Shown here piece after piece: positions 4,894 to 62,545 of a DNA stretch of 64,000 nucleotides. How positions within the stretch are numbered: the first letter of the stretch is position 1; the number at the start of each line of letters is the position of its first letter. Below the pieces are notes generated by a model that was not told the origin of the DNA, made no database searches, and saw only the letters and a program-made list of their open reading frames with translations. Both the position numbers and the translations under genes were made by a program. Origin of the DNA: an uncultured Bacteroidales bacterium (GTDB lineage Bacteria; Bacteroidota; Bacteroidia; Bacteroidales; Paludibacteraceae); assembly GCA_902800215.1 (NCBI GenBank), contig CADCDS010000005.1:22408-86407 (forward strand), written 5' to 3'.

Positions 4894-6151
4894 TTCTATA
4901 TTTAAACAAATATCGCTTAATCGGTTTTCTGGTCAATGACGCCAAGTCCAATATCTCACTGGCCTCAGCGATGTCGCGCACCGTACCGTCGTTGTACAGG
5001 ATACCGATGCTGTCGGCTTTCTCGGAGTAGGTGTTACTGGTAGAAACATGCTCCGACCACATGTATGTTGCATCTTGTTGGGAGATACCCAAAGCCTTTG
5101 CATACTCCCTGTTCAGTTCTTGTTTCCGGGTTTCCGTCAACGGTGCTTCAATTAATTGTCCTCTAAACAACTGACGGTTGATGAAACTGCGACTTAACAA
5201 ACTCAGCACTTTGTCTTCACCGGCGATCCAGGCTTTGATAGCACAGAGCACGTCGTTATCATCCAGCAGCGCATACTGCTCCAAGGCCTCCGTATGGGTG
5301 CCGAACATGTCAAACGTTACCGGCTGGTAGAGGAAATAATGCAACGCAGGTGAGCAGAATAAATCTTTTCCTCCTCTTGCCAGTTCTTTGGCACGGCTGA
5401 GTATCTTAATCAGATGTTGTTCGGCAGCCACACTGGTCTTATGCAGATAGACCTGCCAATACATCAGGCGACGGGCAACGAGGAACTTCTCCACACTGTA
5501 GATACCTTTGACTTGCACGACCAGTTTATCGTCCTTCACATCCAGCATCTTGAGTAAGCGCTCACTGGCGATACGACCTTCCTGCACCCCCGTGAAGAAA
5601 CTATCCCGGCACAGATAATCCATGCGGTCCACATCCAGTTGGCTGGATATCAACTGATGGAGGAAATGCTTCGGGTACTCGTTCTTGAATATGGCGATCG
5701 CCATGTCTAATGGCTTGTCGGTCATCCCGTAACCCGTAACCCGTAACCCGTAACCTCTCAAATCCTCATTAATACGCTCCATCATAAGGAGCGATATATC
5801 TTCATGCGTCACGCCGTCCACCAGGGTATGTTCCAGCACATGGGAGAACGGTCCGTGACCGATGTCGTGCAGCAGGATGGCTATCATCGCACTTGTCTCC
5901 TCCTGCTCCGTGATAGCCACCCCTTTTAACCGCAACGACATAATCGCTTCCTGCATCAGGTGCATCGCACCGATCGAGTGACCGAACCGACTATGCATTG
6001 CACCCGGGTACACCAGATAGGATAAACCTAACTGGCGGATCCGGTTCAAACGCTGCACATAAGGATGCTGCAGCACGTCGAAGATCAGATCATTCGGGAT
6101 GGATAAAAACCCGAATACAGGATCGTTAATGATTTTTCGTTTATTTAGCAC
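4883..6151 (-). CDS. HD-domain phosphohydrolase (COG1078, dNTPase-like)
   Basis: 422 residues. The HD metal site is clear: HSRFGHSIG near residue 54 and LLHDIGHGPFSH near residue 92. The later SQLDVDRMDYLCRDS segment marks the YwfO/SAMHD1-like group. Such proteins hydrolyse nucleoside triphosphates, but the substrate here is unknown. A short segment around residues 133-147, rich in Gly, Tyr and Arg, is encoded by four copies of a 7-bp repeat (5726-5755) and looks like an insertion compared with homologues as I remember them. A one-copy change would shift the frame. The gene is conserved next to lpxD in this phylum. It overlaps both neighbours by 11 bases. Confidence 0.9.
   Translation of the reverse strand: MLNKRKIINDPVFGFLSIPNDLIFDVLQHPYVQRLNRIRQLGLSYLVYPGAMHSRFGHSIGAMHLMQEAIMSLRLKGVAITEQEETSAMIAILLHDIGHGPFSHVLEHTLVDGVTHEDISLLMMERINEDLRGYGLRVTGYGMTDKPLDMAIAIFKNEYPKHFLHQLISSQLDVDRMDYLCRDSFFTGVQEGRIASERLLKMLDVKDDKLVVQVKGIYSVEKFLVARRLMYWQVYLHKTSVAAEQHLIKILSRAKELARGGKDLFCSPALHYFLYQPVTFDMFGTHTEALEQYALLDDNDVLCAIKAWIAGEDKVLSLLSRSFINRQLFRGQLIEAPLTETRKQELNREYAKALGISQQDATYMWSEHVSTSNTYSEKADSIGILYNDGTVRDIAEASEILDLASLTRKPIKRYLFKYRNGI
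5726..5755. repeat. Four copies of heptamer CCCGTAA inside the HD gene
   Basis: Exact 7-bp tandem repeat starting at 5726, 5733, 5740 and 5747, followed by CC. On the coding (minus) strand the unit reads TTACGGG, so the encoded peptide cycles through three frames. Gain or loss of one copy would frameshift the HD protein at about one third of its length. Confidence 0.95.
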
Positions 6152-6635
6152 GTAATACTTTATCTATACTTGTCAAACGATAGGACATGTTTACATACAA
6201 CTTGCATAAGCCGAACTGCAGCAGGCTCACTAACAGGATCACTACACCGTAGATGATCGCGCCAACACCCATTCCTTCGCTATGGTAGCCTCCATAGTAC
6301 GAGTACGAATTATATTCGGACAAGCTGACAATACCCAGGATCACCAAAACGATGGATCCTAAGATACCTAATACGAGGAAGATCGTAGCGACCACGGATA
6401 CCATGTTCTCGGAACCGGAATACTTCGCTTCTTCCAACACTTTCTTCTCCTCCGCAACAGGAGCAGGAGCAGGAGCCGGTGCAGGAGCGGCGGCTTTAAC
6501 TGCAGATTGAACGGCTACGTTGATAGCCTCTAACATCTCTTCCTTGCTAAAGGACGGAGCTTTGGGAGCGGCGGCTTTTTTCGGAGCGGCTTTTTTCGGA
6601 GCGGCTTTCTTCGGAGTCTCTTGTGTTTCTGCCAT
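6141..6635 (-). CDS. Lys/Ala/Pro-rich protein with two membrane helices, unknown function
   Basis: 164 residues. Residues 9-23 repeat the unit PKKAA, encoded by a 15-bp direct repeat at about 6555-6615, and a short Pro-Ala run (APAPAPAP) lies near residue 55. Two hydrophobic helices follow: about residues 82-107 (VATIFLVLGILGSIVLVI) and 126-150 (GVGAIIYGVVILLVSLLQ), joined by a Tyr/Ser/Gly-rich loop. No enzyme motif was found. The basic N-terminus could bind nucleic acid or acidic polymers on the cytoplasmic side, but this is a guess. The stop overlaps the HD gene by 11 bases. I do not recognise the family. Confidence 0.75.
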   Translation of the reverse strand: MAETQETPKKAAPKKAAPKKAAAPKAPSFSKEEMLEAINVAVQSAVKAAAPAPAPAPAPVAEEKKVLEEAKYSGSENMVSVVATIFLVLGILGSIVLVILGIVSLSEYNSYSYYGGYHSEGMGVGAIIYGVVILLVSLLQFGLCKLYVNMSYRLTSIDKVLRAK

Positions 6636-6669
6636 AATCAGATACCCTGGTTCGTGTCGGGCACAACTG

Positions 6670-7194
6670 TTAATGAATACTCTGTTCTTGACTTTGACGT
6701 CGTTGATATTTGTCGATTTCTAATTGTGTATGCTTCATCCGGTGTTCCAGTTCAGCAATGTCCGACATCACGATCTTCAGATGATGCGCCCGTTCCAGCA
6801 ATTCCAGGGCCTTGGCGTTCTTCGCATCGATCGCATACTCCTCAATTCGTTTCCCGTTCCGGTAGATCAGCAAGTCCCCTCCGTCATCACGCACCATGAT
6901 CCGGATACCCGTGTTGTCCTTAAGCGTATAAAAACCATGATCCTGGTATTTCGGATCCTTGGGTTCGTATTTGAACAAGGCGATCAAGGAATCGGCCACC
7001 GGCATCAAGGCCTCGTGCTGGGACTGAAAATAAGCCAAAGTGCGCTGCTGGTCCACCAGACCTACCGAATCCCGTTCATGCTTCTCGGCACGGTACCGGT
7101 CCAACTTACTCTCACCCCCGCAACTCACCATCATCGACAGGCATATCATGCCTGCCAATACCATCGTCATATACCGTCCTATTCTCTTTCGCAT
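6670..7194 (-). CDS. Predicted lipoprotein, unknown function
   Basis: 174 residues, with a signal peptide ending in the lipobox MMVSC (Cys25), so probably membrane-anchored. The mature part is charged, with a short beta-rich middle (IRIMVRDDGGDLLIYRNGK) and a helical C-terminus (residues 125-165) of coiled-coil character. No catalytic motif seen. It is the first gene after the promoter at 7218-7250, and 34 bases separate it from the next gene, so it probably heads the long lpx operon. Family not recognised. Confidence 0.75.
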   Translation of the reverse strand: MRKRIGRYMTMVLAGMICLSMMVSCGGESKLDRYRAEKHERDSVGLVDQQRTLAYFQSQHEALMPVADSLIALFKYEPKDPKYQDHGFYTLKDNTGIRIMVRDDGGDLLIYRNGKRIEEYAIDAKNAKALELLERAHHLKIVMSDIAELEHRMKHTQLEIDKYQRRQSQEQSIH

Positions 7195-7217
7195 AGCGCT
7201 GCAATCCTAAATTCGCT

Positions 7218-7250
7218 GCAAAATTACAAAAAAATATTGATATACGCAAA
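7218..7250 (-). promoter_or_regulatory. Bacteroidetes-type promoter for the lipoprotein-lpx operon
   Basis: Minus strand: -33 TTTG (7247-7250), 20-base spacer, -7 TAATTTTGC (7218-7226), followed by AGCG. This is a full match to TTTG-N19/21-TAnnTTTGC. The -33 lies only 5 bases from the stop of the preceding CoA transferase gene, and no terminator separates them. Confidence 0.85.
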
Positions 7251-7255
7251 TAAAT

Positions 7256-12047: not shown

Positions 12048-12082
12048 GATATTAATGTGTTAGTATTTTTTCATTTGCGGGT

Positions 12083-12115
12083 GCAAAGATACGAAAAAAA
12101 AAGGACATACACAAG
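12083..12115 (-). promoter_or_regulatory. Promoter of the iorAB operon
   Basis: Minus strand: -7 TATCTTTGC (12083-12091), 20-base spacer made mostly of T, -33 CTTG (12112-12115), one mismatch to TTTG. The start codon of iorA lies about 35 bases downstream. A 72-codon open frame through this stretch is not considered a gene. Confidence 0.75.
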
Positions 12116-12209
12116 AGTGTATGCCATTTTTTACAGATTTTTCTGATAAATAGATAGAAAAAAGGTTCAAAAATAGTTGTTATTTCGAAGTTATAAACCT
12201 TAATTATAT

Positions 12210-12264
12210 CGCACTTATCGCGCACAAATGACGCACTTATCTCGTACTTATCACGCACTAATTT
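12210..12264. repeat. Five direct repeats with exact 11-bp period in the iorA/potA divergent region
   Basis: Units begin at 12210, 12221, 12232, 12243 and 12254. The core is CGCACTTATC, exact in units 1 and 3, with one change in unit 4 (CGTACTTATC) and more in units 2 and 5 (CGCACAAATG, CGCACTAATT). Eleven bases is close to one DNA turn, so a protein could bind the same face at each copy. The array lies about 95 bases upstream of the iorA -33 and 130 bases upstream of the potA -33. Confidence 0.9.
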
Positions 12265-12279
12265 TTGCATGTAATTATG

Positions 12280-12310
12280 TTGGTATTATATACTACGTAT
12301 ATAATACTAA
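12280..12310. promoter_or_regulatory. 14-bp inverted repeat, possible operator
   Basis: Arms TTGGTATTATATAC (12280-12293) and GTATATAATACTAA (12297-12310) around a 3-base centre, with one mismatch. It lies 90 bases upstream of the potA -33 element, next to the 11-bp array. Role inferred from position and symmetry only. Confidence 0.6.
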
Positions 12311-12314
12311 TAGT

Positions 12315-12332
12315 TGTCGCAATGATGCGACA
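12315..12332. promoter_or_regulatory. 7-bp inverted repeat, possible operator
   Basis: Perfect arms TGTCGCA and TGCGACA separated by ATGA, directly after the larger inverted repeat. From here to about 12420 the plus strand is a long A-rich tract of the kind found upstream of strong promoters. Confidence 0.5.
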
Positions 12333-12397
12333 AAAATGCACATTATAAAGAGAAAATTGCTATAAAAAAAGAAAAAATGCAGAAAAAAATCAAAATA

Positions 12398-12430
12398 TTT
12401 GCACAATTCAAAAAAAAGTAGTAATTTTGC
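12398..12430 (+). promoter_or_regulatory. Promoter of the pot operon
   Basis: -33 TTTG (12398-12401), 20-base spacer, -7 TAATTTTGC (12422-12430). The predicted transcript start is near 12437, giving a leader of roughly 36 bases to the chosen potA start. A small hairpin GCGCA-CATA-TGCGC lies at 12441-12454 in that leader. Confidence 0.8.
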
Positions 12431-12472
12431 GGCGTATTTTGCGCACATATGCGCGTGTTTTTATGGAAAGAA

Positions 12473-13945
12473 ATGGCAAAATCGGATTTTATTATTGAGG
12501 TAAACCATGTCTCGAAGCAGTTCGAGGATGGTAAGTATGCATTGGATGACGTAAGTCTTCAAGTGAAAAAAGGGGAGTTCGTCACCATCTTAGGTCCTTC
12601 GGGCTGCGGTAAGACAACGTTACTGCGTTGTATAGCCGGTTTTCAAGTAGCCAGTTCAGGCGAGATCTTATTAAAAGGGGAGGATGTGACGAAGACTCCT
12701 CCGTACAAAAGGCCTGTGAATACGGTCTTTCAGAAGTACGCCTTGTTCCCCCACTTGAATGTATTTAATAATGTAGCCTTCGGTTTGAAACTGAAGAAAG
12801 AGCCGTCAGATGTGATCAAGAAGAAGGTACGTCAGGCGCTGAAGATGGCGAACCTCACGGGTTATGAGGAGCGTAAGGTGGACACGTTGAGTGGTGGTCA
12901 GCAGCAGCGTGTAGCGATAGCGCGTGCGATTGTGAACCAGCCGGAGGTGTTGTTACTCGACGAGCCGCTGAGTGCGTTGGATCTGAAGATGCGGCACGAC
13001 ATGCAGATCGAGTTGAAGGAGTTACACGAGAAACTCGGTATCACGTTTATCTACGTGACGCACGATCAGGAAGAGGCGCTGACGCTGAGTGACCGCGTGG
13101 TGGTGATGAGCGAAGGTAAGATCCAGCAGATCGGTACGCCGACGGATATATACAATGAGCCGCAGAACTGCTTTGTGGCGGATTTCATCGGCGAGAGCAA
13201 TATTCTGAGCGGTACGATGATACGCGACAAGCGGGTGAAATTCTGCGGACAGGAGTTTGACTGTATCGACACGGGGTTCGGTGAGAACAATCCGGTGGAT
13301 GTCGTTATCCGACCCGAAGATATTTACGTTTGGCGCAAAGAGGATGAGAAACGCGGAAAGGTAGCGGTGAACGAAGAGGATGATGCCGAAGATCGCGTGC
13401 CGAAGGGGAAGTTTACGAAATGGTACGGCGAGGTGCAGAGTTGTATTTTCAAGGGAGTGCACTATGAGATGCGTGTGCTGACGCCGGATAAATATGAGTT
13501 TTTGATTCAGGACTACCATGAGTACCTGCCGGGAACGGAGATCGGAATGCTTGTGAAGCCGGAGGATATCCAGATCATGAAGAAGGAGCACTATGTCTAT
13601 AACTATTTCGAAGGCGAGGTGCAGAAGAACGGCAAGGTGCGGTTCTTAGATGCGGACTGGGCGGTAGAAGAGAAGGCGCTGGAAGGTTTTGAACCGGGCG
13701 AGAAAGTGCAGGTGCGGGTGAAGTTCCGTGATATCGATTTGCAAGACTATGAGGAAGAAGGAACGCTGAGCGGTGAAGTGCATTTCATCCTGTTCAAGGG
13801 CAATCACTACCATCTGACGGTTCGTACCGACGAGGGTCATGATCTGTACGTGAACACGAATGACGTATGGGATGACGGAGACAGAGTGGGAATTGTTATC
13901 AAGCCGGAAGATATTCGGGTTGATAAAATGAAAAATGAAAAATGA
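12473..13945 (+). CDS. potA: Spermidine/putrescine ABC transporter, ATP-binding protein
   Basis: 490 residues from ATG 12473. An in-frame ATG at 12449 would leave a leader of only about 12 bases and add an unconserved peptide. Walker [10 protein letters not shown] near residue 41, signature [14 protein letters not shown], Walker [12 protein letters not shown]. Longer than the usual 350-380 residues: after the first TOBE region (VIRPEDIYV) there are two more similar segments. One runs from [16 protein letters not shown] to LVKPEDIQI and the other from [16 protein letters not shown] to VIKPEDIRV, so the regulatory domain looks duplicated. It powers import of polyamines through PotB and PotC. 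The last codons are made of a 7-bp repeat. Confidence 0.93.
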
Positions 13946-13954
13946 AAAATGAAA
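13928..13954 (+). repeat. Heptamer ATGAAAA repeat across the potA stop and potB ribosome site
   Basis: Units start at 13928, 13935, 13942 and 13949 (the last ends AAAG). The third unit supplies the potA stop TGA, and the array runs into the purine-rich ribosome site GAAAGGAAG of potB. Copy-number change would alter the potA C-terminus and the potA-potB spacing. Confidence 0.9.
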
Positions 13955-13958
13955 GGAA

Positions 13959-14756
13959 GTGAGTAAGATTCTTCAAATATTCTCATCGCGTCGGACGTGG
14001 GCATGGCCGTATGTGGTGTTCTTAGTGCTGTTTGTAGTGCTGCCGCTGATTATTGTGGGCGTGTATGCGCTGACGGACATCAACGGCGATTTCACGCTGA
14101 GAAACTTTGCGAAGTTCTTCAGTCACAGTGCGGCGATACAGACGTTTTTATACTCGGTGATGATCGCGGTGATCAACACGGTGATCTGTCTGCTGATCGG
14201 TTATCCGGCGGCGTATATCATGGCGCAGGCGGAGTTCAAGACACCGGCGGTGATGGCGATGCTGTTTATCCTACCGATGTGGATCAATTTCCTGCTTCGT
14301 ACCGTGGCGACGGTGGAGCTGTTTAACATGTGCGGTTTGCCGTTAGGTGAAGGTGCGTTGCTGTTCGGTTTATGTTACGACTACCTGCCGTTTATGATCT
14401 ACCCGATTTATAATACGCTGCAGAAGATGGATAACAGTCTGGTAGAGGCGGCGCAGGATTTGGGAGCGAGCAGATGGCAGAGTTTCTGGAAAGTGATCGT
14501 GCCGCTGAGTATGCCGGGTGTGTACAGCGGTATTGTGATGGTGTTTATGCCGACGGTAAGTACGTTTGCGATAGCCGAGTTGCTGACGCATAACAATATC
14601 AAGTTGTTCGGTAGTCTGATTCAGGATTATATCACGACGACGGACCTGCTGAACTACGGAGCGGTGCTGTCGTTGGTACTGCTGATCATTATCGGTCTGA
14701 CAAGCTTCTTCGGTGACCACGGTGGTTCCGGAGAGGAGAAAGGAGGGGTGGTATGA
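13959..14756 (+). CDS. potB: Spermidine/putrescine ABC transporter permease
   Basis: 265 residues with six hydrophobic segments. The EAA loop of ABC permeases reads VEAAQDLGASRWQSFWKVIVPLSMPG near residues 160-185. The start is GTG at 13959, behind AAAGGAAG; no ATG with a ribosome site is closer to the conserved N-terminus RRTWAWPYVVFLVLFVVLPL. The stop overlaps the potC start (ATGA). It forms the inner-membrane channel with PotC. Confidence 0.92.
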   Translation: MSKILQIFSSRRTWAWPYVVFLVLFVVLPLIIVGVYALTDINGDFTLRNFAKFFSHSAAIQTFLYSVMIAVINTVICLLIGYPAAYIMAQAEFKTPAVMAMLFILPMWINFLLRTVATVELFNMCGLPLGEGALLFGLCYDYLPFMIYPIYNTLQKMDNSLVEAAQDLGASRWQSFWKVIVPLSMPGVYSGIVMVFMPTVSTFAIAELLTHNNIKLFGSLIQDYITTTDLLNYGAVLSLVLLIIIGLTSFFGDHGGSGEEKGGVV

Positions 14757-16111
14757 GACGGTTTTTAGCTATTGGCTATTGGCTGTTGGCTGTTAGCCTT
14801 TCCGCTTTGGCGCAGTCGAATGTGAACTATAGCGTTCGAGTTGGGGAGACAAAGGAGAATACGGTGCTGGCAGAGTTCCCGGAGAGTTATGAGGGAAAGA
14901 AAGTGAATATCCGAATACAGACCGTTGCACTGACAGAAGACAGAGCACAGACTGATTCACTGGATTTTGTGTTTGCGGATGAGGAGATAGAGGCGTTAGG
15001 CACATGGGGTGAGCAAGTGTTTGCATACACGGATGAAGGAGAGACGGAATGGACTGTTTGGCGGAGTAAGAAAGAGCCGAAGAACCGGAACCAGGCGGTG
15101 AAGGTGAAGAACGGTCGTGACAGTTTTGAGCAGTATCTGCAAGAGACTTTGGGAACGCGTGCCAACAGAGGCTGGATCTGGTGGATCTTTGCCGGCGTGA
15201 TCGGTATAGGAGTGCTCATCAAGTCGATCCTGACGATTCGCAAACGGAGGGCGGAGAAGTTATTGAGTTCGGTGGAACAAGAGACGCTGCATCGTATGCG
15301 GATGGGCAACCGGAGACATTATATCTCGCAGGCGTACCTGTGGATTTTATTATTGGTATTATACGCGCCTATTGCGCTGATTGTGATTTACTCGTTCACA
15401 GACAGCAAGATCTTAGGCAACTGGACCGGATTCTCGCTGGAGCTGTATGCGAACCTGTTCACGGGTCATGCGGATGCAGGGCTGAACAGTGCGATATTGA
15501 ACACAGTGATCATCGCGTTGATTGCGGCGGTGAGTTCGACGATTTTGGGTACCTTGGCGGCGATCGGTATTTATAACATGCGTGCCCGTCACCGGAAGGC
15601 GATCAGTTTCCTGAACTCGGTGCCGATGATCAACCCGGATATCATCACGGGTATCTCGCTGTTCCTGCTGTTTGTGGCCTTGGGAGTGAGTCAAGGTTTG
15701 GCAACGGTATGTATCGCGCATGTGGTGTTCTGTACGCCGTACGTAGTGCTGAGTGTGCTGCCGCGTCTGAGTCGCATGAATCCGAACACGTATGAGGCGG
15801 CGTTGGACTTGGGAGCGACACCATTCCAGGCGCTGCGAAAAGTGATGTTACCGGAGTTATGGCCGGGAATGCTGAGCGGATTCATCTTGGCGCTGACGCT
15901 GAGTGTGGATGATTTCGGCGTGACGTTCTTCACCAAGGGTAGCGGAGGTTTGGAGACACTGAGTACGTTCATCTATTCGGATGCACGAAAAGGCGGTCTG
16001 ACACCGGAATTGCGACCGTTGTTCACGATCATCCTTTTGGTGATGCTGACGGCATTGATTGTTATCAATGTACGGAGTAACAAGAAAGCGAAAAAAGAAC
16101 AAAAACAATAA
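14753..16111 (+). CDS. potC: PotC permease with an extra N-terminal periplasmic domain
   Basis: 452 residues, against about 260 for ordinary PotC. Residues 1-21 form a signal peptide ending LSALAQ. Residues 22-140 are a soluble, beta-rich, acidic region of no recognised family. A membrane helix follows at about 142-163 (WIWWIFAGVIGIGVLIKSIL). The PotC permease proper begins near residue 182 (MRMGNRRHYIS) and contains the EAA loop YEAALDLGATPFQALRKVMLPE. The start is behind a strong GGAGGGG site. An internal start at 15302 could yield plain PotC. The added domain may bind substrate or PotD; this is inference. The signal peptide is written in a 7-bp repeat. Confidence 0.88.
   Translation: MRRFLAIGYWLLAVSLSALAQSNVNYSVRVGETKENTVLAEFPESYEGKKVNIRIQTVALTEDRAQTDSLDFVFADEEIEALGTWGEQVFAYTDEGETEWTVWRSKKEPKNRNQAVKVKNGRDSFEQYLQETLGTRANRGWIWWIFAGVIGIGVLIKSILTIRKRRAEKLLSSVEQETLHRMRMGNRRHYISQAYLWILLLVLYAPIALIVIYSFTDSKILGNWTGFSLELYANLFTGHADAGLNSAILNTVIIALIAAVSSTILGTLAAIGIYNMRARHRKAISFLNSVPMINPDIITGISLFLLFVALGVSQGLATVCIAHVVFCTPYVVLSVLPRLSRMNPNTYEAALDLGATPFQALRKVMLPELWPGMLSGFILALTLSVDDFGVTFFTKGSGGLETLSTFIYSDARKGGLTPELRPLFTIILLVMLTALIVINVRSNKKAKKEQKQ
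14765..14798 (+). repeat. Heptamer TTRGCTR repeat encoding the PotC signal peptide
   Basis: Five units with period 7 start at 14765, 14772, 14779, 14786 and 14793: TTAGCTA, then TTGGCTA once, TTGGCTG twice, and a final TTAGCC. The same unit family appears in ileS at 30485-30512. One-unit slippage would frameshift the gene near its start. Confidence 0.88.
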
Positions 16112-16126: not shown

Positions 16127-17371
16127 ATGAAAAAATTATCTGTATTAGTCTTGGCTGTTGCAGCCGTTCTGTTTACCGCTTGTAACCATGCGGATCGTGC
16201 TCATCAATTGAAAGTGCTCAACTGGGCGGATTATATTAATCCGGAGGTGAAAGCCAACTTCGAACAATGGTATTTCGACCATACGGGTGAGAAAGTGGAA
16301 CTGGTTTATGAGATGTTCGATATCAACGAGACCGCTTTGACGAAGATCGAGGTAGGTCACGAGGATTATGACGTGTTCTGTCCGTCGGAGTATATCATCG
16401 AGCGTATGCTGAAGAAAGGTCTGGTTCAGCCGATTCAGAAGGAGTTAGTCGATGACTCGATCTACTATTTCGACAATATCTCTCCGTTCGTGAAGGAGAA
16501 GTTCCAACAGATGGCACCGAGTGCAGACATCACCGTGAGTGACTACACGGCCGGTTACATGTGGGGAACGACAGGATTCATCTTCAATCCGCAGCACGTG
16601 AATGCAGAGGATCTGCACTCCTGGGCAGCGATCCTGAATCCGAAGTTTGAGAACCGCATCCTGATGAAAGATGCGTTCCGTGACGTTTACTCGGTATTGG
16701 TACTGTACGCTTTTGCAGACCAGATCGAGAAGGGTGAGGTAAGTCGTGAGGAGTTGGTTCGTGACATCACTCCGGAACGCGTAGAGGCAGTGAAGGCTAT
16801 TCTTTTACAGGCGAAGGATCAGATCTGCGGTTGGGAGGTTGACTTCGGTAAAGAAGAGATGACGAAGGGTAAAGCATGGATGAACCTGAGTTGGTCGGGT
16901 GACGCCCAGTTTGCGATCGAAGAGGCGGCTGAGATGGATGTGATGCTGGATTATATCATTCCGGAAGAAGGTTCGAACGTATGGTTCGACGGGTGGGTGA
17001 TCCCGAAGTACGCGAAGAACGTGAAGGCCGCTACGTATTTCATCGATTATATGTGCAAGGCTGAGAACGCGTTGGCTAACATGGACGAGATCGGTTATGT
17101 ATCCTGCGCCGGTGGTGAGAAAGCCGCAGCCGAGATCTTAGCTGAGATGAACGATGAGGAAGAATGGCCGGAGACGGTAGATGCAAGTTACTTCTTCGGA
17201 GACGAACCGATCGAGGTGGAAGACGAGATCTTGGATCCTCATGCGCTGCACCTGAATCCGGTGTATTATGCAGACAAGAGTATCATCGACCGCTGCGCAC
17301 TGATGCATGATGCCGGCGACGCACAGGAGATGCTGCTGGAGATGTGGAATGCGATTAAATTAGCAAGATGA
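16127..17371 (+). CDS. potD: Spermidine/putrescine-binding lipoprotein
   Basis: 414 residues. Signal peptide with lipobox LFTAC (Cys19), so anchored in a membrane rather than free in the periplasm. The mature start LKVLNWADYINPEV is typical of PotD/PotF substrate-binding proteins, and WFDGWVIPKYAKN is the usual late segment of the polyamine pocket. It delivers polyamine to PotBC. It is about 60 residues longer than E. coli PotD. The stop overlaps the TPR protein start by 4 bases, so that gene is in the same operon. Confidence 0.93.
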   Translation: MKKLSVLVLAVAAVLFTACNHADRAHQLKVLNWADYINPEVKANFEQWYFDHTGEKVELVYEMFDINETALTKIEVGHEDYDVFCPSEYIIERMLKKGLVQPIQKELVDDSIYYFDNISPFVKEKFQQMAPSADITVSDYTAGYMWGTTGFIFNPQHVNAEDLHSWAAILNPKFENRILMKDAFRDVYSVLVLYAFADQIEKGEVSREELVRDITPERVEAVKAILLQAKDQICGWEVDFGKEEMTKGKAWMNLSWSGDAQFAIEEAAEMDVMLDYIIPEEGSNVWFDGWVIPKYAKNVKAATYFIDYMCKAENALANMDEIGYVSCAGGEKAAAEILAEMNDEEEWPETVDASYFFGDEPIEVEDEILDPHALHLNPVYYADKSIIDRCALMHDAGDAQEMLLEMWNAIKLAR

Positions 17372-20319
17372 GAAAATCTATCAAACTAGGAATCCTAGGC
17401 ATCCTAGGTTTTCTAGGAACCCTATTATCTCCTTCTTTCGCTCAGACGACGGAGATGGAGACACGCTATCAGGAGTTGTCGGCACGTTTCGATGTGCGCG
17501 ACAAACTCCTGCTGCGTGACTTGAAGACCTATCTGCAGGCTTTTCCGTACACCACTTTTGCCGATGAGGTGAAGTTCATGCAAGGTGTACTGCAGGCGGA
17601 GAAAGGTCAATACAAACAGAGTCTGAAATATTTCGACGGTATTCAAGTCAAAGCCTTGACGCGTGATCATCAGACGGAATACACGTTCTATCGCGGTTAT
17701 GATTTCCTGATGATGCAGGAATACAAGGTAGCTGCTGTTCATTTCCGCAATTCGAACTTAGTGAACAACGAGCGTTATGCAACCCGTGCGGCTTATTACG
17801 CCGGATATTGTCACTACAAATTAGGGGAATACGACAAGGCGATGAACTATTTCAAGAGCCTGGAGAACCGACCGGAGTACGCCAAGACGATTCCGTATTT
17901 CCTGACGCAGATCTACTATGCGAAGGGGGAATACGAGGAAGTGGCGACGCGTGTGGAACAACTGCTGCAAGACAACCCGGAGGGGGAGAACAACACGGAG
18001 TTACACCGTATGTTAGGTGAGATCCATTACCTGCAGGGCGATTACCGTCAAGCGGCGGAGCACCTGAAACGGTACCATAAAGCGGTTTCCGCCAACAAGG
18101 AAGAGATCATCCGGAACGACCTGTATATGTTAGGTTCTGCGGAGTATCGTTTAGGGGAATATGCCGAGGCAGTGAAGTACCTCAAGCAGATGAAGCAGTT
18201 GAAAGACACGCTGTCGGAAGCGGCTTGTCTGACGATGGGTAACGCGTATGTGAAGTTGAAACAACCGGAACAGGCGAAGTTATCGTACAAAGCAGCCGCA
18301 GCGTTCGGTATTACACCGGCCGTGACGGAAGAAGCATCGTATAACTACACGCTGTGCACCTATCAGTCCTCGAGTGCGTTAGGCGAATCGGTGCGGGCGT
18401 TCAATGATTTTTTGCATCAGTTTCCGAAATCCAAATACGAGAGTAAGATCCATCGTCTGCTGAGTGACGCGCTGATGCAGAGTAAGAACTACACGGCTGC
18501 TATTGCGCTGTTAGACTCCCTTCCCCACCCGACGCAGAAGATGATTCAGACGAAACAGTATCTGCGTTATCAGTTAGGAGTGGATCATTTTGTGCAAGGC
18601 AAGATGAAGCAGTCGGCAGAATGGATGACGGAAGTGATAAAGCACGATGCGGAGCATCCCCAATACACGACGGAGGCGTATTACGTACGTGCGGAAGCGA
18701 ACTACCGTTTGAAGAATTATAAAGCGGCGGAAACGGATCTGAAGACTTTCTTCAGCCGTTCGGATGCCAAGCAGAGCAAGAACTACACGATAGCGATGTA
18801 CCTGCAGGGATACTGCTATTTCTCGCAGCAGCAGTACGACAAGGCACAAGTAGCGTTTACGAACTATATTGATGCGGCTTTGGCAACCGAACCGACGTAT
18901 CCGGATGCGATGAACCGTATCGGCGACTGCTATTTCATCGCCCGTCAGTTTGCGCAGGCGATCAGTTATTACTCGCAGGTAAGTAACATGCGTGCAGCGG
19001 GCACGGACTATGCGCTGTTCCAACGCGGTTATGCCTTAGGTCTGCAGCATAAGCATCAGGAGAAGATCGACGTGATGCGGGACTTGGTGAAGAAATATCC
19101 GAAGTCGGACTATGCGGATGACGGAATGTACGAGATCGCCCGGGCACAATTGCAGAAGAACGATGAACAAGGTGCTATCTCGACGTATGAGGAGTTATTG
19201 AAGAAATACCCCAACTCGTCTTTGGCACGCAAGGCATCGCTTGAGCGGGCTATGCTGTACCGCAATCTGCATCAGAACGAACAGGCGATAGCTGCTTACC
19301 GTCAGACGATTGAGAAATACCCGTCCACGGATGAGGCTTATACGGCGCTGGATGCGTTGCAGGTACTGTACGTGGAGACGAATAACGTAGGCGAATACGT
19401 AGCATACACGAAGGACCTGGGTAAACTGAATATGAACGTGACGACGCAGGAAGACTCGTTGCTGTATGCAGCGGCGGAGATGCAGTACATGCAGGCGTCG
19501 TATCAGAAAGCGATTGCAGCGCTGACGAACTACGTGACGCAGTACTGTCCGGGTGGACGTTACTGCACTATTTCCCGGTATTACTTGGCGGACTCGTATG
19601 ACCGCTTGGGAATGACGAGTGAAGCCTTGGAGCAATATAAAGTGCTGGCGGAGATGAGTGCGAACCCGTATCAGGAAGAAGCAGCTATCCGTGTAGCGGA
19701 GATCTGTATGGATAAGAAAGATTGGCTTTGCGCATTAGAAGGGTACTACCGGATGTTGGCTTTATCCTCTTCGCACGAGAATACCGTTACGGCACGTATC
19801 GGTGTGCTGCGTTGCAGCCGGGAGTTGGAGCGTCATCAGGTGACGATCGACATGAGTGAACAGATCCTGAATGACAACCCGGATGAGGAGACGCGTACGG
19901 AGGCGCTGTACGGTAGAGCGAAAGCGTATGTAGCAACCGGTCAATGGAGTAAGGCACAAGCGGATTTGCGGAGCTTGGCAGAAGAGGTGCGTACCGCTAA
20001 AGGTGCGGAAGCGAAGTTCCTGTTAGCACAGAGTTATTTTGAGTTAAAAGACCTGGATGCAGCGGAAAACGAAGTGATGAGTTTTACGCAGATGCAGACC
20101 TCGCAGCAGTACTGGTTAGCACGTGCGCTGATCCTGCTGAGCGATATCAACCGTAACCGTGGCGAGTTGTTCCAGGCACGGCAGTACCTGCTGGTGCTGG
20201 AGCAGAACTATGTGCTGCAGACGGATGATATCCATGCGCTCATCGCAGCGCGTCTGACGGAATTGGATCAGATGGAAGAACCGCAAAGAAAGGAGGAGGG
20301 TCATGAAATTGAAGATTGA
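17368..20319 (+). CDS. Large tetratricopeptide-repeat protein, exported
   Basis: 983 residues. Signal peptide ending SPSFAQ. Nearly the whole mature protein is TPR-like helix pairs (for example YYAGYCHYKLGEYDKAMNYF and AIAAYRQTIEKYPSTDEAY), so it is a scaffold for protein contacts in the periplasm or at the outer membrane. It overlaps potD by 4 bases and the following barrel gene by 17, a layout that points to a working pair with that barrel. Bacteroidetes often pair such TPR proteins with outer-membrane proteins; the exact role is unknown. The signal peptide is encoded by 9-bp repeats. Confidence 0.85.
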   Translation: MRKSIKLGILGILGFLGTLLSPSFAQTTEMETRYQELSARFDVRDKLLLRDLKTYLQAFPYTTFADEVKFMQGVLQAEKGQYKQSLKYFDGIQVKALTRDHQTEYTFYRGYDFLMMQEYKVAAVHFRNSNLVNNERYATRAAYYAGYCHYKLGEYDKAMNYFKSLENRPEYAKTIPYFLTQIYYAKGEYEEVATRVEQLLQDNPEGENNTELHRMLGEIHYLQGDYRQAAEHLKRYHKAVSANKEEIIRNDLYMLGSAEYRLGEYAEAVKYLKQMKQLKDTLSEAACLTMGNAYVKLKQPEQAKLSYKAAAAFGITPAVTEEASYNYTLCTYQSSSALGESVRAFNDFLHQFPKSKYESKIHRLLSDALMQSKNYTAAIALLDSLPHPTQKMIQTKQYLRYQLGVDHFVQGKMKQSAEWMTEVIKHDAEHPQYTTEAYYVRAEANYRLKNYKAAETDLKTFFSRSDAKQSKNYTIAMYLQGYCYFSQQQYDKAQVAFTNYIDAALATEPTYPDAMNRIGDCYFIARQFAQAISYYSQVSNMRAAGTDYALFQRGYALGLQHKHQEKIDVMRDLVKKYPKSDYADDGMYEIARAQLQKNDEQGAISTYEELLKKYPNSSLARKASLERAMLYRNLHQNEQAIAAYRQTIEKYPSTDEAYTALDALQVLYVETNNVGEYVAYTKDLGKLNMNVTTQEDSLLYAAAEMQYMQASYQKAIAALTNYVTQYCPGGRYCTISRYYLADSYDRLGMTSEALEQYKVLAEMSANPYQEEAAIRVAEICMDKKDWLCALEGYYRMLALSSSHENTVTARIGVLRCSRELERHQVTIDMSEQILNDNPDEETRTEALYGRAKAYVATGQWSKAQADLRSLAEEVRTAKGAEAKFLLAQSYFELKDLDAAENEVMSFTQMQTSQQYWLARALILLSDINRNRGELFQARQYLLVLEQNYVLQTDDIHALIAARLTELDQMEEPQRKEEGHEIED
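17386..17421 (+). repeat. Nonamer CTAGGNNNN repeat encoding a signal peptide
   Basis: Four units of 9 bp start at 17386, 17395, 17404 and 17413, each CTAGG plus four variable bases, encoding LGI-type tripeptides. The hexamer CCTAGG is palindromic. The same repeat begins the signal peptide of the next gene at 20339. Confidence 0.9.
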
Positions 20320-22141
20320 AGATTTTAGATTGATAATTTTAGGACTCCTAGGAATCCTAGGTAGTAATACATACGCACAGACGGATACGCTGAACCGGAG
20401 TGTGACGGTGGAACGGGATTTTCAGCCGACGATACAGGCGGCAGGAAAAATCTCCACCAAGCCGGCGGTGATCCAGACCCAGATCGATGCAACACCGGTG
20501 GAGTACTCAGAATACACGGCGCCGGTGACACCGGAGACAAGTTTCAATCCGTTACTGTCCCAGCCGACACGTTTTGAACCGGGTAAACGGTACAACGGTC
20601 ATATCAGCGGTGCGATCGGTCATCCGAACACGTTCTTTGATTTCGGCTATCATCTGGATGACGGAAAGAAATCGATCTTGGACGTGTATGCCAAGCATCA
20701 TGCGGAATGGGGTCTGGCGGCGTTGAGTAAGAGTAAGTTAGGTTTGAACTTCACGCATACGTTCTCTACCTGCGATCTGTATTTCGGCGTCAACGGCGGA
20801 AATATCTTCTACCATAAATACGGTCATTTCTACGACTATTCGCAACAATGGGGTATGTGGGAGAAGAACAAGGTGGCATATGCCAATGCGGCTCCGTTAG
20901 GCCCGAAAGACCAGACAGCGCTGTGGACAGCGGAAGCTTATTTAGGTATTAAGGCGAATGCAAAGCAGGAGTTTCAATATCAGGTACAGACGGGATATCA
21001 GTTGTTTGCCAAGATCGGTGCGGTTGCTGAACATCAGGTACGCACAAAAGCGGCTTTCGACTGGCATGCTGAGGAGCATCATGTGGGAGCAAACGTATAC
21101 GTGCAGAATAACTTCCTGCAGGTGAACGACGTCTTGGGTATACCGGATTCGCTGTACCGCAACCGGCATAACTTCCGTATTGAACCGTACTATGCGTATG
21201 AAGGAAGACGGGTGCGGATCCATCTGGGTGTGAACCTGGATCTGAACCTCGGTCACGGCCAGTTACTGTCGGGTTCGGAACAGATCTCATTTGCTCCGTC
21301 ACCGCATATCAACTTCGAAGCGCAGGTAGCCAAACAATGGTTAACGATCTACGCGGATGTAGTAGGTAGTCACGGATTCGGTACACTGCAGGGCTTTATG
21401 GAAGAGAACCGTTACCGCCTGATTCATGCAGGTATTGTGGAGCCGCACCATGCGTCTTATACACCGGTGGACGGTGAGTTAGGTTTTCATATCCGTCCGT
21501 ACCGGGATCTGCTGATTGAGTTACACGGAGGTTACGCGTATATGATCCATGAAGATATGTGGGTAGCGAACACGAGTAACACCACGTTTAATTATCAGTC
21601 GCTGAACGTGCCGATGATGGCCGGTGACTTCAGTTACCGACACGTCAACTACCAACGCGGTAAGATAGGTGGTCAGATCAATTACCACTATCGCGATATT
21701 GTGCGTGTGAACGTGGATGGTGACTACTATATCTGGAAAGGCGACACGACGGTGTATGACCGGCCTAATTGGGAGTTAGGTGTCCGTATCGACGGCCGGA
21801 TCGACAAACACTGGTCGCTGTACTCGGATAACCATTTTGCCGGAAGCAGGTTAGCGGCCACGTATGACGGTGCCACCGACACCTATACCGACGTGACGTT
21901 GAAGCCGATCATCGATCTGAATCTTGGTCTGCAATACGATATGTGGGTAGGCAAGGCAAAGGCGAAAGGCGAGCGATTAAAGGTGAAGGCAAAGGGTGAG
22001 CAGGTGATGCAGCCGGAAGCAAAACCGAACCTGTCGTTCTTCTTCCAACTGAACAACTGGTTACACCGCAAAAACGAATATTATTACGGCTATCGTTCCC
22101 AAGGAATCAATTTTCTGTTAGGCGTAACGTATAAATTTTAA
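20303..22141 (+). CDS. Outer-membrane beta-barrel protein, unknown function
   Basis: 612 residues. Signal peptide ending GSNTYAQ. After a linker (about residues 28-90), the protein alternates short aromatic-rich strands such as ISGAIGHPNTFFDFGYHL and ends in Phe (LLGVTYKF), as outer-membrane barrels do. No plug domain or TonB box is evident, so it is not a standard TonB receptor. A Lys/Gly-rich segment near residues 552-570, encoded by a loose 7-bp periodic stretch (about 21954-22002), looks like an insertion. Start behind AGGAGGAGGG, overlapping the TPR gene. The TPP riboswitch begins 3 bases after its stop. Confidence 0.78.
   Translation: MKLKIEDFRLIILGLLGILGSNTYAQTDTLNRSVTVERDFQPTIQAAGKISTKPAVIQTQIDATPVEYSEYTAPVTPETSFNPLLSQPTRFEPGKRYNGHISGAIGHPNTFFDFGYHLDDGKKSILDVYAKHHAEWGLAALSKSKLGLNFTHTFSTCDLYFGVNGGNIFYHKYGHFYDYSQQWGMWEKNKVAYANAAPLGPKDQTALWTAEAYLGIKANAKQEFQYQVQTGYQLFAKIGAVAEHQVRTKAAFDWHAEEHHVGANVYVQNNFLQVNDVLGIPDSLYRNRHNFRIEPYYAYEGRRVRIHLGVNLDLNLGHGQLLSGSEQISFAPSPHINFEAQVAKQWLTIYADVVGSHGFGTLQGFMEENRYRLIHAGIVEPHHASYTPVDGELGFHIRPYRDLLIELHGGYAYMIHEDMWVANTSNTTFNYQSLNVPMMAGDFSYRHVNYQRGKIGGQINYHYRDIVRVNVDGDYYIWKGDTTVYDRPNWELGVRIDGRIDKHWSLYSDNHFAGSRLAATYDGATDTYTDVTLKPIIDLNLGLQYDMWVGKAKAKGERLKVKAKGEQVMQPEAKPNLSFFFQLNNWLHRKNEYYYGYRSQGINFLLGVTYKF
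20309..20365 (+). repeat. Degenerate 7-bp repeat followed by 9-bp CTAGG repeat in a signal peptide
   Basis: From 20309 five units of period 7 (TTGAAGA twice, then TTTTAGA, TTGATAA and TTTTAGG). This passes directly into three 9-bp units from 20339 (TTAGGACTC, CTAGGAATC, CTAGGTAGT). Together they encode most of the signal peptide of the barrel protein. Confidence 0.75.
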
Positions 22142-22144
22142 TCA

Positions 22145-22203
22145 TTAACGGGGTGCTTCGGCTGAGAACAAACCCTTTGAACTTGAACAGGTAATGCTGT
22201 TAA
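22145..22203 (+). promoter_or_regulatory. TPP riboswitch (THI element)
   Basis: The conserved blocks are all present in order: GGGGTGC (22150-22155 region), GGCTGAGA (22160-22167), AACCCTTTGAAC (22171-22182), then GGTAATGC (22190-22197). P1 can form between TTAAC (22145-22149) and GTTAA (22199-22203). The start codon of the TonB receptor is only 8 bases after P1, and the purine-rich AAAGGAA site overlaps the 3' side of P1. Thiamine pyrophosphate binding would therefore hide the ribosome site, which means translational control. No clear promoter lies between the preceding stop (22141) and the element. Confidence 0.95.
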
Positions 22204-22210
22204 AGGAATT

Positions 22211-24499: not shown

Positions 24500-24968
24500 C
24501 GGCCGTCCAAGCGATCAGTACAGCGCCTATGGGGATCCACCCGTAGGCGTTTTCTATGAAGGATAGATGATAGGAGATAGATGATAGATAAACGATGACC
24601 GTCATCCAGATTGCGACTAAAGCATATCCGAGGAGGAAGGCCGTCACACTGCGAAGGGTTAACAAGTTACGCAGTTGCAGATAGATACAGGCCGGGATAG
24701 CCAAGAAGAGGATGGTAGGCAGCCAATAGGAGGCAGCACCCAAGAGTACGGCGATGATGAAGCAGGTCTCCACCGAGGAAGCGTGCCGCTTGAGACTCGT
24801 GAGCATAAACAGGGCACACATCACCACGGCAACGGGTATGAGATAGGAAATCGGTGACAGTTCCAGCGCACAGAAAGGTAGCAAGGGTACGACAGCACCC
24901 CCTATTGCCAGCAGCCAAATGACTACCGGCAACAGGTGGTATAATATCGATTGCGTATGTCGTTTCAT
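24465..24968 (-). CDS. Small integral membrane protein, unknown function
   Basis: 167 residues with about five hydrophobic helices and a basic C-terminus (IVRRNLRVR). No transporter or enzyme motif recognised. The start overlaps the peptidase stop by 4 bases, so it is the last gene of the ileS operon. The 3' end overlaps the convergent TonB receptor gene by 35 bases. The segment near residues 127-135 is encoded by a 7-bp repeat. Confidence 0.7.
   Translation of the reverse strand: MKRHTQSILYHLLPVVIWLLAIGGAVVPLLPFCALELSPISYLIPVAVVMCALFMLTSLKRHASSVETCFIIAVLLGAASYWLPTILFLAIPACIYLQLRNLLTLRSVTAFLLGYALVAIWMTVIVYLSSISYHLSFIENAYGWIPIGAVLIAWTAATIVRRNLRVR
24562..24589. repeat. Heptamer GATAGAT, four copies, in the membrane protein gene
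   Basis: Period-7 units start at 24562, 24569 (GATAGGA), 24576 and 24583. They lie in the coding sequence for the loop and helix near the C-terminus of the minus-strand membrane protein. Confidence 0.85.
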
Positions 24969-30011: not shown

Positions 30012-30432
30012 AATAGAACTTAACCTGCTTACGGTCTTTCTCGTAGTACTCCAGGTCCGTTTCCGTCAGTTTGGAAACCACATATACCTTAGGAATCTCC
30101 GCACCGCCGTTATCCATCAGATGGATCTCCGTCAGACCTCCGCCATGAGTTTCAAACAGATACTTAAACCAGCCGTTTCCGTATGGCGTCAGGTCTTCTT
30201 CAAACACATCATCCGCTTCATCCCATTCCCGGCCATAGAAATAGCCGGGTTCATCGGCTTGTTCGTCCGTAAACCGCACATAATGCTGCATATCTTTCAC
30301 TTGTGTCTCCAGCCAAAGGCCTTGCAGGTCACTAAGTTGGAAAACCAGTTCTTCATCCTTTGGACCGATCATGTTACAACCGGCCAACAGCACACCGACC
30401 ATGACGATCGTCAAATATTTCAAACGTTTCAT
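29995..30432 (-). CDS. Small lipoprotein, lipocalin-like
   Basis: 145 residues. Lipobox LLAGC (Cys19). The mature part begins with a DLQGLWLETQ segment resembling the first strand of small lipocalin-like proteins of Bacteroidetes, and ends in beta strands KQVKFYFEKVL. No metal or catalytic motif. It starts on the last base of the ileS stop and overlaps the AsmA-like gene by 17 bases, so it is cotranscribed. The fold assignment is tentative. Confidence 0.7.
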   Translation of the reverse strand: MKRLKYLTIVMVGVLLAGCNMIGPKDEELVFQLSDLQGLWLETQVKDMQHYVRFTDEQADEPGYFYGREWDEADDVFEEDLTPYGNGWFKYLFETHGGGLTEIHLMDNGGAEIPKVYVVSKLTETDLEYYEKDRKQVKFYFEKVL

Positions 30433-44421: not shown

Positions 44422-44453
44422 CGTTATTACGTTATTACGATATTACGTCATTA
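44422..44453. repeat. Octamer CGTTATTA-like repeat between susC and susD
   Basis: Four units with period 8 start at 44422, 44430, 44438 and 44446 (CGTTATTA twice, CGATATTA, CGTCATTA). They fill most of the 44-base gap upstream of susD, covering the place where its ribosome site region begins. Confidence 0.88.
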
Positions 44454-44460
44454 CGAATCG

Positions 44461-51540: not shown

Positions 51541-51558
51541 CGTATATACCGTTCGGAT

Positions 51559-54828: not shown

Positions 54829-54847
54829 GATATATAATGTTTAATGA

Positions 54848-59894: not shown

Positions 59895-59906
59895 GGCTGA
59901 AAAATA

Positions 59907-59934
59907 TTTGTGATTTGTAATTTGTGATTTATTG
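59907..59934. repeat. Heptamer TTTGTRA repeat between the esterase and kinase genes
   Basis: Units start at 59907, 59914 and 59921 (TTTGTGA, TTTGTAA, TTTGTGA), with a degenerate fourth at 59928. They fill the gap between the esterase stop (59929) and the kinase start (59894) and touch the last codons of the esterase. Confidence 0.85.
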
Positions 59935-61293: not shown

Positions 61294-62506
61294 TCAAGTT
61301 CACAATATTAAATGCATTGTAGTACTTGTCCATATTGTGCTCAATACGCATCAGCACTACCTCTTCTGCATGGATACCCAGACGCTCCAGGTTTTCATAC
61401 AAGTTCTGACGAGCTACCAATGCCTCCGGTTTCTGCCAGATGTAACGGCAACCGGTCTTCACGAGCCACAACTGACGATCCGGTGTGCAGTCCTTGAGGT
61501 CTTTACCTACCTCTTCGCCGTGCAACCATTTCTTCCAACGGTTGGACTCATATACGCATTGCCACAGCACTTGGGTCATGTTACTCAGTTGAGCAATCTT
61601 TCCCTCAGCGTACAGTTTCTTCTCCTCCTCTTCGAGTTCTGCCAACGCGTCGTACTCGTTCATCGTGAACTCCGGTCCAACGTTAGCGGCACCCATGCCT
61701 GCCTTCGGATAATCCTCCGGGTTCTCCACATCGTCACTATAGTGACCCTTGATGTAACTGCCATAAGGACGAACTTTCGCCGTCAATTTACGTGCTACTT
61801 CCGGATCAAAGAAGGTGGTGTGCAAATCGGTACCTACCTTACCTACGATGAAGCAAGGCCATACATCGTCCAGACCTACCTCGTGCAAACCGGCTTTCAG
61901 ACCCTCCAAGAAGGTGTCAAACGTCTTCTCGTCTGCCAGACCACCATGCACCTCTTCCGTACCTACCTCGTAAGAAATAGGAGCAATGTTATGTGCCTTG
62001 CGGAAATCCTCGGCATGCTTGATCAGTTCAACGGTACGTTTAACAACCACATGGATATCGATGATCTCGCCCTTCGGCAGGAAGATATCTACCGTCGGAT
62101 CCACGTGAATCAGGTCATAACCTGCCAGAATAGCAGCCTCGTAACTCTTCTTCACACCGTTCATCGCACGCTCGGTATCCCAACGCTCGATGCTCTGTTT
62201 GTCCTTCAACCACGGACCTCCGTGATCGATAGCCACTACGTACGGACCCGTGTAATGAACAGCCGCAGCCTCACGTGCCAAAATCTTCGTGAACGCTTCC
62301 TGCGTCATACCGGTGTAACCACCGTCGCAGTCCACCTGGTTCAGTGTGGTAGCAAAATAGATCGGCGCATTGTTACGCTTCGCTGCACGGAACGATGCTT
62401 TGATTACGGACAAGGAGTTCGGACATGCTGCAAACAAGGTCATAGGAACTCCGGTTGCTTTCTTTCTCTCCTCCATCACTTGGAGAATATGCTCAGTCTT
62501 TTTCAT
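61277..62506 (-). CDS. GatZ/KbaZ-type tagatose-1,6-bisphosphate aldolase subunit
   Basis: 409 residues. Matches the class II aldolase-like GatZ/KbaZ family: VVAIDHGGPWLKDK near residue 93, DLIHVDPTVDIFLP near residue 131, YEVGTEEVHGGL near residue 181. In enterobacteria this is described as the non-catalytic partner of GatY/KbaY in cleaving tagatose-1,6-bisphosphate to DHAP and glyceraldehyde-3-phosphate. No catalytic-subunit gene is present in the window, so the partner is elsewhere or this protein acts alone. Overlaps the esterase gene by 17 bases. Confidence 0.9.
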   Translation of the reverse strand: MKKTEHILQVMEERKKATGVPMTLFAACPNSLSVIKASFRAAKRNNAPIYFATTLNQVDCDGGYTGMTQEAFTKILAREAAAVHYTGPYVVAIDHGGPWLKDKQSIERWDTERAMNGVKKSYEAAILAGYDLIHVDPTVDIFLPKGEIIDIHVVVKRTVELIKHAEDFRKAHNIAPISYEVGTEEVHGGLADEKTFDTFLEGLKAGLHEVGLDDVWPCFIVGKVGTDLHTTFFDPEVARKLTAKVRPYGSYIKGHYSDDVENPEDYPKAGMGAANVGPEFTMNEYDALAELEEEEKKLYAEGKIAQLSNMTQVLWQCVYESNRWKKWLHGEEVGKDLKDCTPDRQLWLVKTGCRYIWQKPEALVARQNLYENLERLGIHAEEVVLMRIEHNMDKYYNAFNIVNLNDYLK

Positions 62507-62517
62507 ATTGCTAAAAA

Positions 62518-62545
62518 TTTGAAATCTTAAATTTGAAATCTTAAA
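62518..62545. repeat. Alternating heptamers TTTGAAA/TCTTAAA between agaS and gatZ
   Basis: Four heptamers start at 62518, 62525, 62532 and 62539, giving two copies of a 14-bp unit. The array ends one base before the agaS stop codon and lies just upstream of the gatZ ribosome site. Confidence 0.9.

Follow-up and report, generated by a model that had tools for sequence, protein, structure and literature searches.

Heptamer arrays in a Paludibacteraceae genome: period-7 excess, shared words and rewriting between conserved flanks

The DNA analyzed here, referred to as the window, is a stretch of 64,000 nt from an uncultured Bacteroidales bacterium of the Paludibacteraceae (contig CADCDS010000005.1, positions 22,408 to 86,407; assembly GCA_902800215.1). 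Its genome (G000) has been assembled to 1.96 Mb in 30 contigs and is 85% complete. Short tandem repeats, mostly with a period of 7 bp, are scattered over unrelated genes and gene junctions of the window. We found that such arrays occur in large excess in this genome, that their heptamer words recur at unlinked sites, and that whole arrays are often rewritten between close relatives while the flanking sequence is kept. The initial annotation had listed 14 repeat sites, and all of them carry the periodicity claimed, either exactly where listed or a few bases away. The array at 12210 is described further below; the others are the following.

5726-5755, minus strand: CCCGTAA x4.3 (GGTTACG on the coding strand), internal to an HD-domain protein (4883-6151, minus strand; Pfam HD and HD_assoc_2).
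13925-13954, plus strand: AAAATGA x4.3, at the end of an ABC-transporter ATPase gene (12449-13945), ahead of the next open reading frame (ORF).
14765-14797, plus strand: GGCTATT/GGCTGTT, in the hydrophobic, putatively signal-like N-terminus of a transport permease ORF (14753-16111).
17386-17424, plus strand: 9-bp repeat CTAGGAATC, N-terminus of a TPR protein (17368-20319).
20304-20333, plus strand: ATTGAAG-type, N-terminus of an ORF without Pfam match (20303-22141).
20340-20361, plus strand: 9-bp repeat TAGGAATCC, N-terminal region of the same ORF (20303-22141).
22223-22252, plus strand: AAAGTCG x3.6, N-terminus of a TonB-dependent receptor, directly behind a TPP-riboswitch-like RNA.
24562-24601, minus strand: GATAGAT-type, about 100 nt from the 3' end of an ORF without Pfam match (24465-24968, minus strand).
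30482-30511, minus strand: degenerate TTGGCTC/TTAGCTG, near the C-terminus of a class I tRNA-synthetase ORF (30432-33752, minus strand).
31532-31572, minus strand: 11-bp repeat GTTGACCGTCG; the 41-nt segment recurs at L323:6479 without flank homology.
44422-44455, minus strand: 8-bp repeat CGTTATTA, between a SusD-family gene and a TonB-type receptor gene.
59906-59930, minus strand: ATTTGTG, where an acetyl xylan esterase-like gene meets a PfkB-family gene.
62515-62547, minus strand: AAATTTG/AAATCTT, between an SIS-domain gene and a GatZ/KbaZ-like gene.

Three of the heptamer arrays are perfect, with matches at a lag of 7 nt in 23/23 (5726), 23/23 (13925) and 18/18 (22228) positions. The other six are imperfect, with 70-89% lag-7 matches: 23/26 at 14765, 16/23 at 20304, 17/21 at 24562, 18/23 at 30482, 16/18 at 59906 and 20/26 at 62515. 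The last of these fits better as a 14-mer (18/19), and the array at 30482 was absent from the list of a repeat finder at score 30. At the non-heptamer sites the matches amount to 23/26 for the 8-mer at 44422, 22/30 and 12/13 for the 9-mers, and 28/39 and 23/24 for the 11-mers.

For the genome itself the window and a further 800 kb were taken together (864 kb in total), and imperfect arrays were counted at a score of 11 or more. Period 7 led with 176 arrays, followed by the periods 8 (50), 11 (23), 9 (21), 6 (10) and 5 (1), whereas Markov sequences of equal size held a single period-7 array at order 3 and none at order 5 (one sequence each). The excess over a composition-matched null, which the initial annotation had proposed as a check, is thus present. 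Exact lag-7 runs of at least 10 numbered 54 in sample A of the genome, which included four stretches picked for their CCCGTAA arrays, and 38 in sample B, which was drawn blind; in the same two samples lag 8 gave 11 and 16 such runs and lag 5 gave 0 and 1. Six order-5 Markov sequences, used as the null for sample A, gave a mean of 0.67 lag-7 runs.

With 93.2% identity over 136 kb aligned and 95.7% over 18.5 kb of the window, G194 is the closest relative found. It contains 90 period-7 arrays in 400 kb, and 20 genomes of the genus contain 35 in 259 kb. Only 3 were counted in 262 kb from 20 genomes of other families of the order, where period 10 leads (11 arrays), and none in 200 kb of E. coli K-12. 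Exact CCCGTAA x3 was present in 8 of 61 searched genomes, all belonging to this genus and including the one studied here. The excess in the genus, with scarcely any in the other families sampled, supports one lineage-wide process over selection gene by gene, as had been suggested for the window, and so does the position of the arrays in unrelated genes.

The words were analyzed in the 123 arrays of the genome that have a lag-7 run of 9 or more. These fall into 55 of 1170 possible word classes, or into 46 or more by another count. That units differ between sites, as had been claimed, is correct insofar as there are many word classes; the words nevertheless turn up again at unlinked sites much more often than chance would predict. 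Arrays of the same class form 202 pairs, whereas 2000 draws from the 7-mer background of the genome averaged 7.7 and never exceeded 20. Recurrent words include GGTTACG, AATCTCC and AAAGTCG, and GGTTACG/CCCGTAA is the consensus of 23 of the 176 arrays. Between this genome and G194 there are 174 same-class pairs, orthologous arrays included, against a background expectation of 7.4. Nearly every word class (54 of 55) has a neighbor within the set that differs by one substitution (null mean 38, maximum 52, 500 draws), and given these neighbors the classes look as if they were related by descent.

The word set is a dialect that follows the lineage. With GGTTACG excluded, words of the own genome are used in 31 of 55 cases in G194, in 8 of 23 in the 20 genus genomes and in 22 of 35 in 12 loci whose titles name Bacteroidales or Paludibacteraceae, the background being 5.5-8.5%. 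Of the arrays in 105 other loci only 20 of 164 do so, and of those in the other families of the order none of 5. Since these 105 loci had been selected for a GGTTACG array, neighbors of GGTTACG are over-counted among them; 68 are titled, some of these being other Bacteroidota, and the titles of 37 were not listed. GGTTACG arrays are widespread, being found in at least 117 stretches, and the 80 of these that were listed span many phyla. A universal vocabulary was rejected in view of the low share of own words in the 105 loci not titled Bacteroidales. A single seed in the form of one mobile CCCGTAA was rejected as well, considering the number of word classes present.

Gene positions for the counts of array placement and of stop codons came from a simple longest-ORF caller. 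Intergenic positions account for 54 of the 176 period-7 arrays (31%, compared to 7% of random positions), and a further 13% lie in the N-terminal 75 nt of a gene (6% of random positions). Arrays of periods 8 and 11 differ from these in being mostly intergenic (41 of 50 and 17 of 23, respectively). These enrichments support the earlier statement that arrays sit in tolerant places, although 84 of the period-7 arrays (48%) are internal to coding sequence. The term signal region, as used here, is deduced from sequence alone.

Whether arrays persist between close relatives could be assessed for the 28 of the 176 arrays covered by the G194 data, which consist of the 400 kb and a few loci; 9 of the 28 are arrays of the window, as G194 loci were taken for window sites. 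Arrays and random control segments with like flanks were run through one pipeline, and identity was counted on the longer sequence. Less than 70% identity to G194 was found for 14 of 28 arrays, in contrast to 14 of 521 controls (Fisher p ~5e-13), and a changed length for 15 of 28 arrays, in contrast to 17 of 521 controls (Fisher p ~2e-13). The flanks, which start 6 nt from the arrays, are 94.9% identical for arrays and 95.4% for controls.

The individual sites illustrate the different outcomes. At 13925 the G194 sequence is 28 nt longer, the additional bases being AAAGGTG units; at 14765 it has two other heptamer arrays instead and is 57 bases longer; at 24562 the length is equal and the words are others (AAAATTG/ATAATTG). 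A different sequence is present at 5726, and the array at 20304 is 6 nt shorter with 73% identity. The site at 62515 also has a different sequence, 77 nt longer and nearly matching that of another genome of the genus, G032 (L287); counted by length this is a multiple-of-7 change, but inspection by eye shows a rewrite. The array at 22223 has the same length and 90% identity, the one at 30482 has 95% identity, 17386 is identical, 31532 is kept and 59906 is kept except for one base. A gene for an Mfd-type repair helicase (Pfam TRCF, UvrB_inter and CarD_TRCF_RID) contains four arrays in which the two genomes differ.

Sister species with alignable flanks carry other heptamer arrays, other inserts or nothing at 13925, 14765, 5726, 59906 and 62515. 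For 5726 there are 29 sister rows, 15 of them free of any insert and 14 with other inserts. At least 12 out of 14 possible lag-7 matches were reached by 2 of these 14 inserts and at least 10 by 4; therefore, most of them are not clearly heptameric. In the alignment of 14765 the site is reached by 13 of 18 rows, the own one included, and TACGATG, GGTTACG, AAAGTCG, GGCTCTT and GGTCATT arrays are among them. Other arrays or none are present at 59906. At the 62515 site one locus (L299) has a period-9 array of TTTCCGG-type words, so tolerant sites accept other periods too. Two further loci (L284 and L293) hold the palindromic inserts CTCCCCTTTAGGGGAG and CCCTCCCCTATAAGGGGAGGG at this site, where other species hold heptamer arrays.

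The length changes depend on the position of the array. At gene ends and between genes they amount to +28, +21, -14 and -21, in addition to the +77 at the rewritten 62515 site, and at one coding site to -21 along with new words. Among the arrays near gene starts, 2 of 5 N-terminal ones changed (+57 and -6), and the leader array at 59906, grouped there, changed by -1. It had been claimed that a copy change in coding sequence would be a frame switch, as 7 is not a multiple of 3. This found no support. Of 14 internal coding arrays compared with G194, 7 differ in length, all 7 by a multiple of 3, and all 14 sister inserts at 5726 are longer than the insert-free form by a multiple of 3.

We considered how arrays with these properties could arise. 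The account we lean to, tentatively and at somewhat less than an even footing, combines slippage by steps of 7 at tolerant sites with re-seeding of words that come from arrays elsewhere in the genome. What we see as arrays would then be the conspicuous portion of a pool of heptamer words common to the genus. Wherever extra DNA is tolerated, namely at gene junctions, N-terminal signal regions, protein ends and some internal sites, DNA slippage would add, drop and homogenize copies in steps of 7. A site would acquire a new word when template switching, or short-patch illegitimate recombination requiring only a few matching bases, copies a small patch into it from another array within the genome; slippage would then amplify that patch. 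Selection would purge insertions that break the frame or introduce a stop codon.

The steps of 7 are direct evidence of slippage by whole units, and so are arrays that have been evened to different words in the two genomes (CATTGTA in one, ATTGGAG in the other). The earlier notion of local tandem duplication, taken alone, does not easily account for words being shared or for whole arrays being replaced from one close relative to the other. Because slippage alone predicts neither shared words at unlinked sites nor a dialect lasting during turnover, we infer re-seeding, including its copying step and the enzymes that may carry it out.

Several results weigh against re-seeding and rewriting. In the comparison with G194, 9 of the 28 arrays have the same length and at least 90% identity. 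Copied word order was not above a shuffle of words within arrays (23 pairs, shuffle mean 17.6 and maximum 29), and at eight settings of length and heterogeneity at least 17 of 200 shuffles reached the observed value for the own genome and at least 29 of 200 for G194. Shared heterogeneous segments do not exceed this null, so copying of longer segments found no support. Exact matches without flank homology do exist (35 nt between L317 and L319, 41 nt between the window and L323 for the 11-mer, and 54 nt within G194), but they can also be read as shared words plus amplification. Short-patch double illegitimate recombination would swap short stretches for copies from elsewhere with little homology. 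New segments would then have their source at another place in the genome; bearing on this are the shared words, a few long exact matches and the negative test of word order.

Local slippage alone is the strongest alternative, although we consider it doubtful. According to it the arrays grow from sequence on site and are altered by slippage and point mutation, and the shared words are the surviving ones that are free of stops and prone to slippage. The negative word-order test fits this explanation, as do some pairs of arrays that agree in register and length, their differences lying in word variants that both contain (the CATTGTA/ATTGGAG case). The coding filter is real, too: words with a stop in periodic reading made up 16 of 84 on the sense strand, compared to 37 of 84 on the antisense strand. 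As the only cause a stop-codon filter was nevertheless rejected, for it shapes orientation and leaves the concentration on few words unexplained; this concentration far exceeds the 7-mer background of the genome. The filter should moreover act likewise elsewhere, yet the words differ outside Bacteroidales (in loci picked for a GGTTACG array). Insert-free sister sequences at 5726 contain, by eye, no GGTTACG-like unit, and entire arrays are replaced between flanks of about 95% identity. As for the unit length, an earlier hypothesis in print relates 7 to how much DNA the active site of the polymerase holds, as reported in the accessible part of PMC4692102. Mismatch repair is described as very efficient on loops of 1-3 bp (PMC4060949, accessible part); consequently long units would escape it, yet the length of 7 is left unexplained.

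It is improbable that the arrays are kept gene by gene for a function as signal peptides, linkers, leaders or coupling signals. The hydrophobic N-terminus at 14765 is built of words, and the enrichment between genes and near starts would be expected of such functions, but nearly half of the arrays are internal to coding sequence, their sequence is not conserved, and about half of the sister rows at 5726 lack the insert altogether.

Ordinary homologous exchange between species, carrying array alleles together with their flanks, appears slightly less probable still. The nearly identical long insert of G194 and G032 at the 62515 site speaks for it, and exchange is harder to exclude at this locus as some other genomes reach 90% there. 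Against it, the array flanks are about 95% identical to G194, whereas the best other matches from the genus at 5726 reach 76% (sample of 61 genomes), so exchanged tracts would need to end at the array edges.

That the arrays are contingency loci, in which a period-7 copy change switches the frame for phase variation, is very unlikely: 7 is not a multiple of 3 and lengths do shift by 7s outside coding sequence, but all changes in internal coding arrays and all sister inserts at 5726 stay in frame, and the host genes include the Mfd-type helicase, a tRNA synthetase and transporters. Equally hard to believe is a reverse transcriptase or telomerase-like enzyme writing the repeats from RNA templates in the manner of DRT10, which produces tandem-repeat DNA from a 9-nt motif (PMC12632851, accessible part), since no RVT_1 match was found in the own genome, at its stated completeness (10 of 41 searched genus genomes have one), and the 46 to 55 word classes counted within a single genome sample would demand many templates.

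Returning to slippage with re-seeding, a further-reaching form of it may be stated, which we regard as unlikely though worth stating: a self-maintaining population of 7-base words would spread between unlinked sites and would rewrite gene edges, N-terminal signal regions and the interiors of core proteins much faster than point mutation does, keeping period and frame.

Some other features touch on the arrays. The 11-bp array at 12210 is a different kind of thing from the other arrays, as it lies inside a dispersed element:

12169-12309, no strand assigned: dispersed element of about 140 nt enclosing the 11/22-bp array at 12210.

Copies of this element were found at L308:19839-19979 (97% over 141 nt), at L309:5987-6085 (98% over 99 nt) and in G194 (L363; 84% over 102 nt). 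It contains CGCACTTATC repeats, and its end lies near the inverted repeat TATTATATAC TAC GTATATAATA. The leader ahead of the array at 22223 (window 22139-22224) resembles a TPP riboswitch with 43.3 bits, the cut-off being 54.3 (E 1.5e-07); the Rfam scan of the window gave nothing at gathering score, so this riboswitch is only a sub-threshold match. Because of the leader the TonB-dependent receptor behind it is probably a thiamin uptake gene. Between 51559 and 58959 long repeats with 66-80% identity and spacings near 3154 and 1616 bases are common to three ORFs, which are therefore related genes in tandem.

In sister species hairpin elements with a three-base loop, GACCGCTNCGCTCAAAG and relatives such as GACCGTCCCTGCGGGACTCAAAG, are set among AAAGTC heptamers. 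Exact GACCGCTNCGCTCAAAG occurs in 16 copies in 8 loci of the genus (L090, L094, L098, L101, L236, L262, L287 and L291, some of which overlap) and in 3 copies in the 400 kb of G194. Cyanobacterial short tandem heptamers (STRR), on which Elhai is said to have reported in 2008, often have small dispersed repeats, hairpins of 21-27 nt, embedded in them. The present arrays are like these in being tandem heptamers, and in sister species hairpin-like elements are found among AAAGTC words. Unlike STRR with embedded repeats, the own genome contains none of the GACCGCTNCGCTCAAAG hairpin elements in its 864 kb.

Published accounts of heptamers, as far as their accessible parts go, allow further comparison. 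Over-representation of heptamers in many bacteria has already been reported (PMC4692102, citing a 2007 survey). The same paper describes heptameric simple sequence repeats (SSRs) of the GGGNATC type in Xanthomonas and Nostoc, which show a genome-wide heptamer excess and length variation between relatives, as do the present arrays; a preference for four units is also named as common to both. The traits by which heptameric SSRs are recognized are found here, namely a period-7 excess over the null and whole-unit copy changes between relatives. In contrast to the Xanthomonas and Nostoc repeats, the present ones comprise dozens of word classes, are in large part internal to coding sequence and are less than 70% identical at half of the comparable sites. 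TAACTGA direct repeats are known from Beggiatoaceae, cyanobacteria and five Bacteroidetes, and their possible mobility has been discussed (PMC4679880). They resemble the present arrays in lying near gene starts and ends, with some inside ORFs, and in 7-nt indels between near strains, but concern a single word in the accessible text, and the TAACTGA class is represented by 0 of the 123 arrays of our sample. A 2025 survey of short tandem repeats reports no average enrichment in bacteria, with Bacteroidota among the dense exceptions, and the terms 'heptanucleotide', 'heptamer' and '7 bp' do not occur in its main text as accessible (PMC12699852). In the open-licence literature we found no account of the arrays of this genus or of the replacement of heptamer words at kept sites. 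Heptamer arrays as a kind are thus known, and what appears to be new is their many-word form lying about half in genes, the genus dialect and the block rewriting in conserved context.

According to published papers the cause of heptamer over-representation in bacteria is still open. The genus offers 178 genomes with dense and fast-changing arrays in alignable genes, and slippage, spread and selection are therefore separable in it. Block rewriting can affect the signal regions at N-termini and the interior of proteins, an Mfd-type repair helicase among them, and bears on gene calling, on 'orphan' protein ends and on models of new peptide sequence. If the spread of words holds true, few known dispersing DNA units would be as small as the heptamer word, and heptamer words, readable in all three frames, would be a source of new protein ends.

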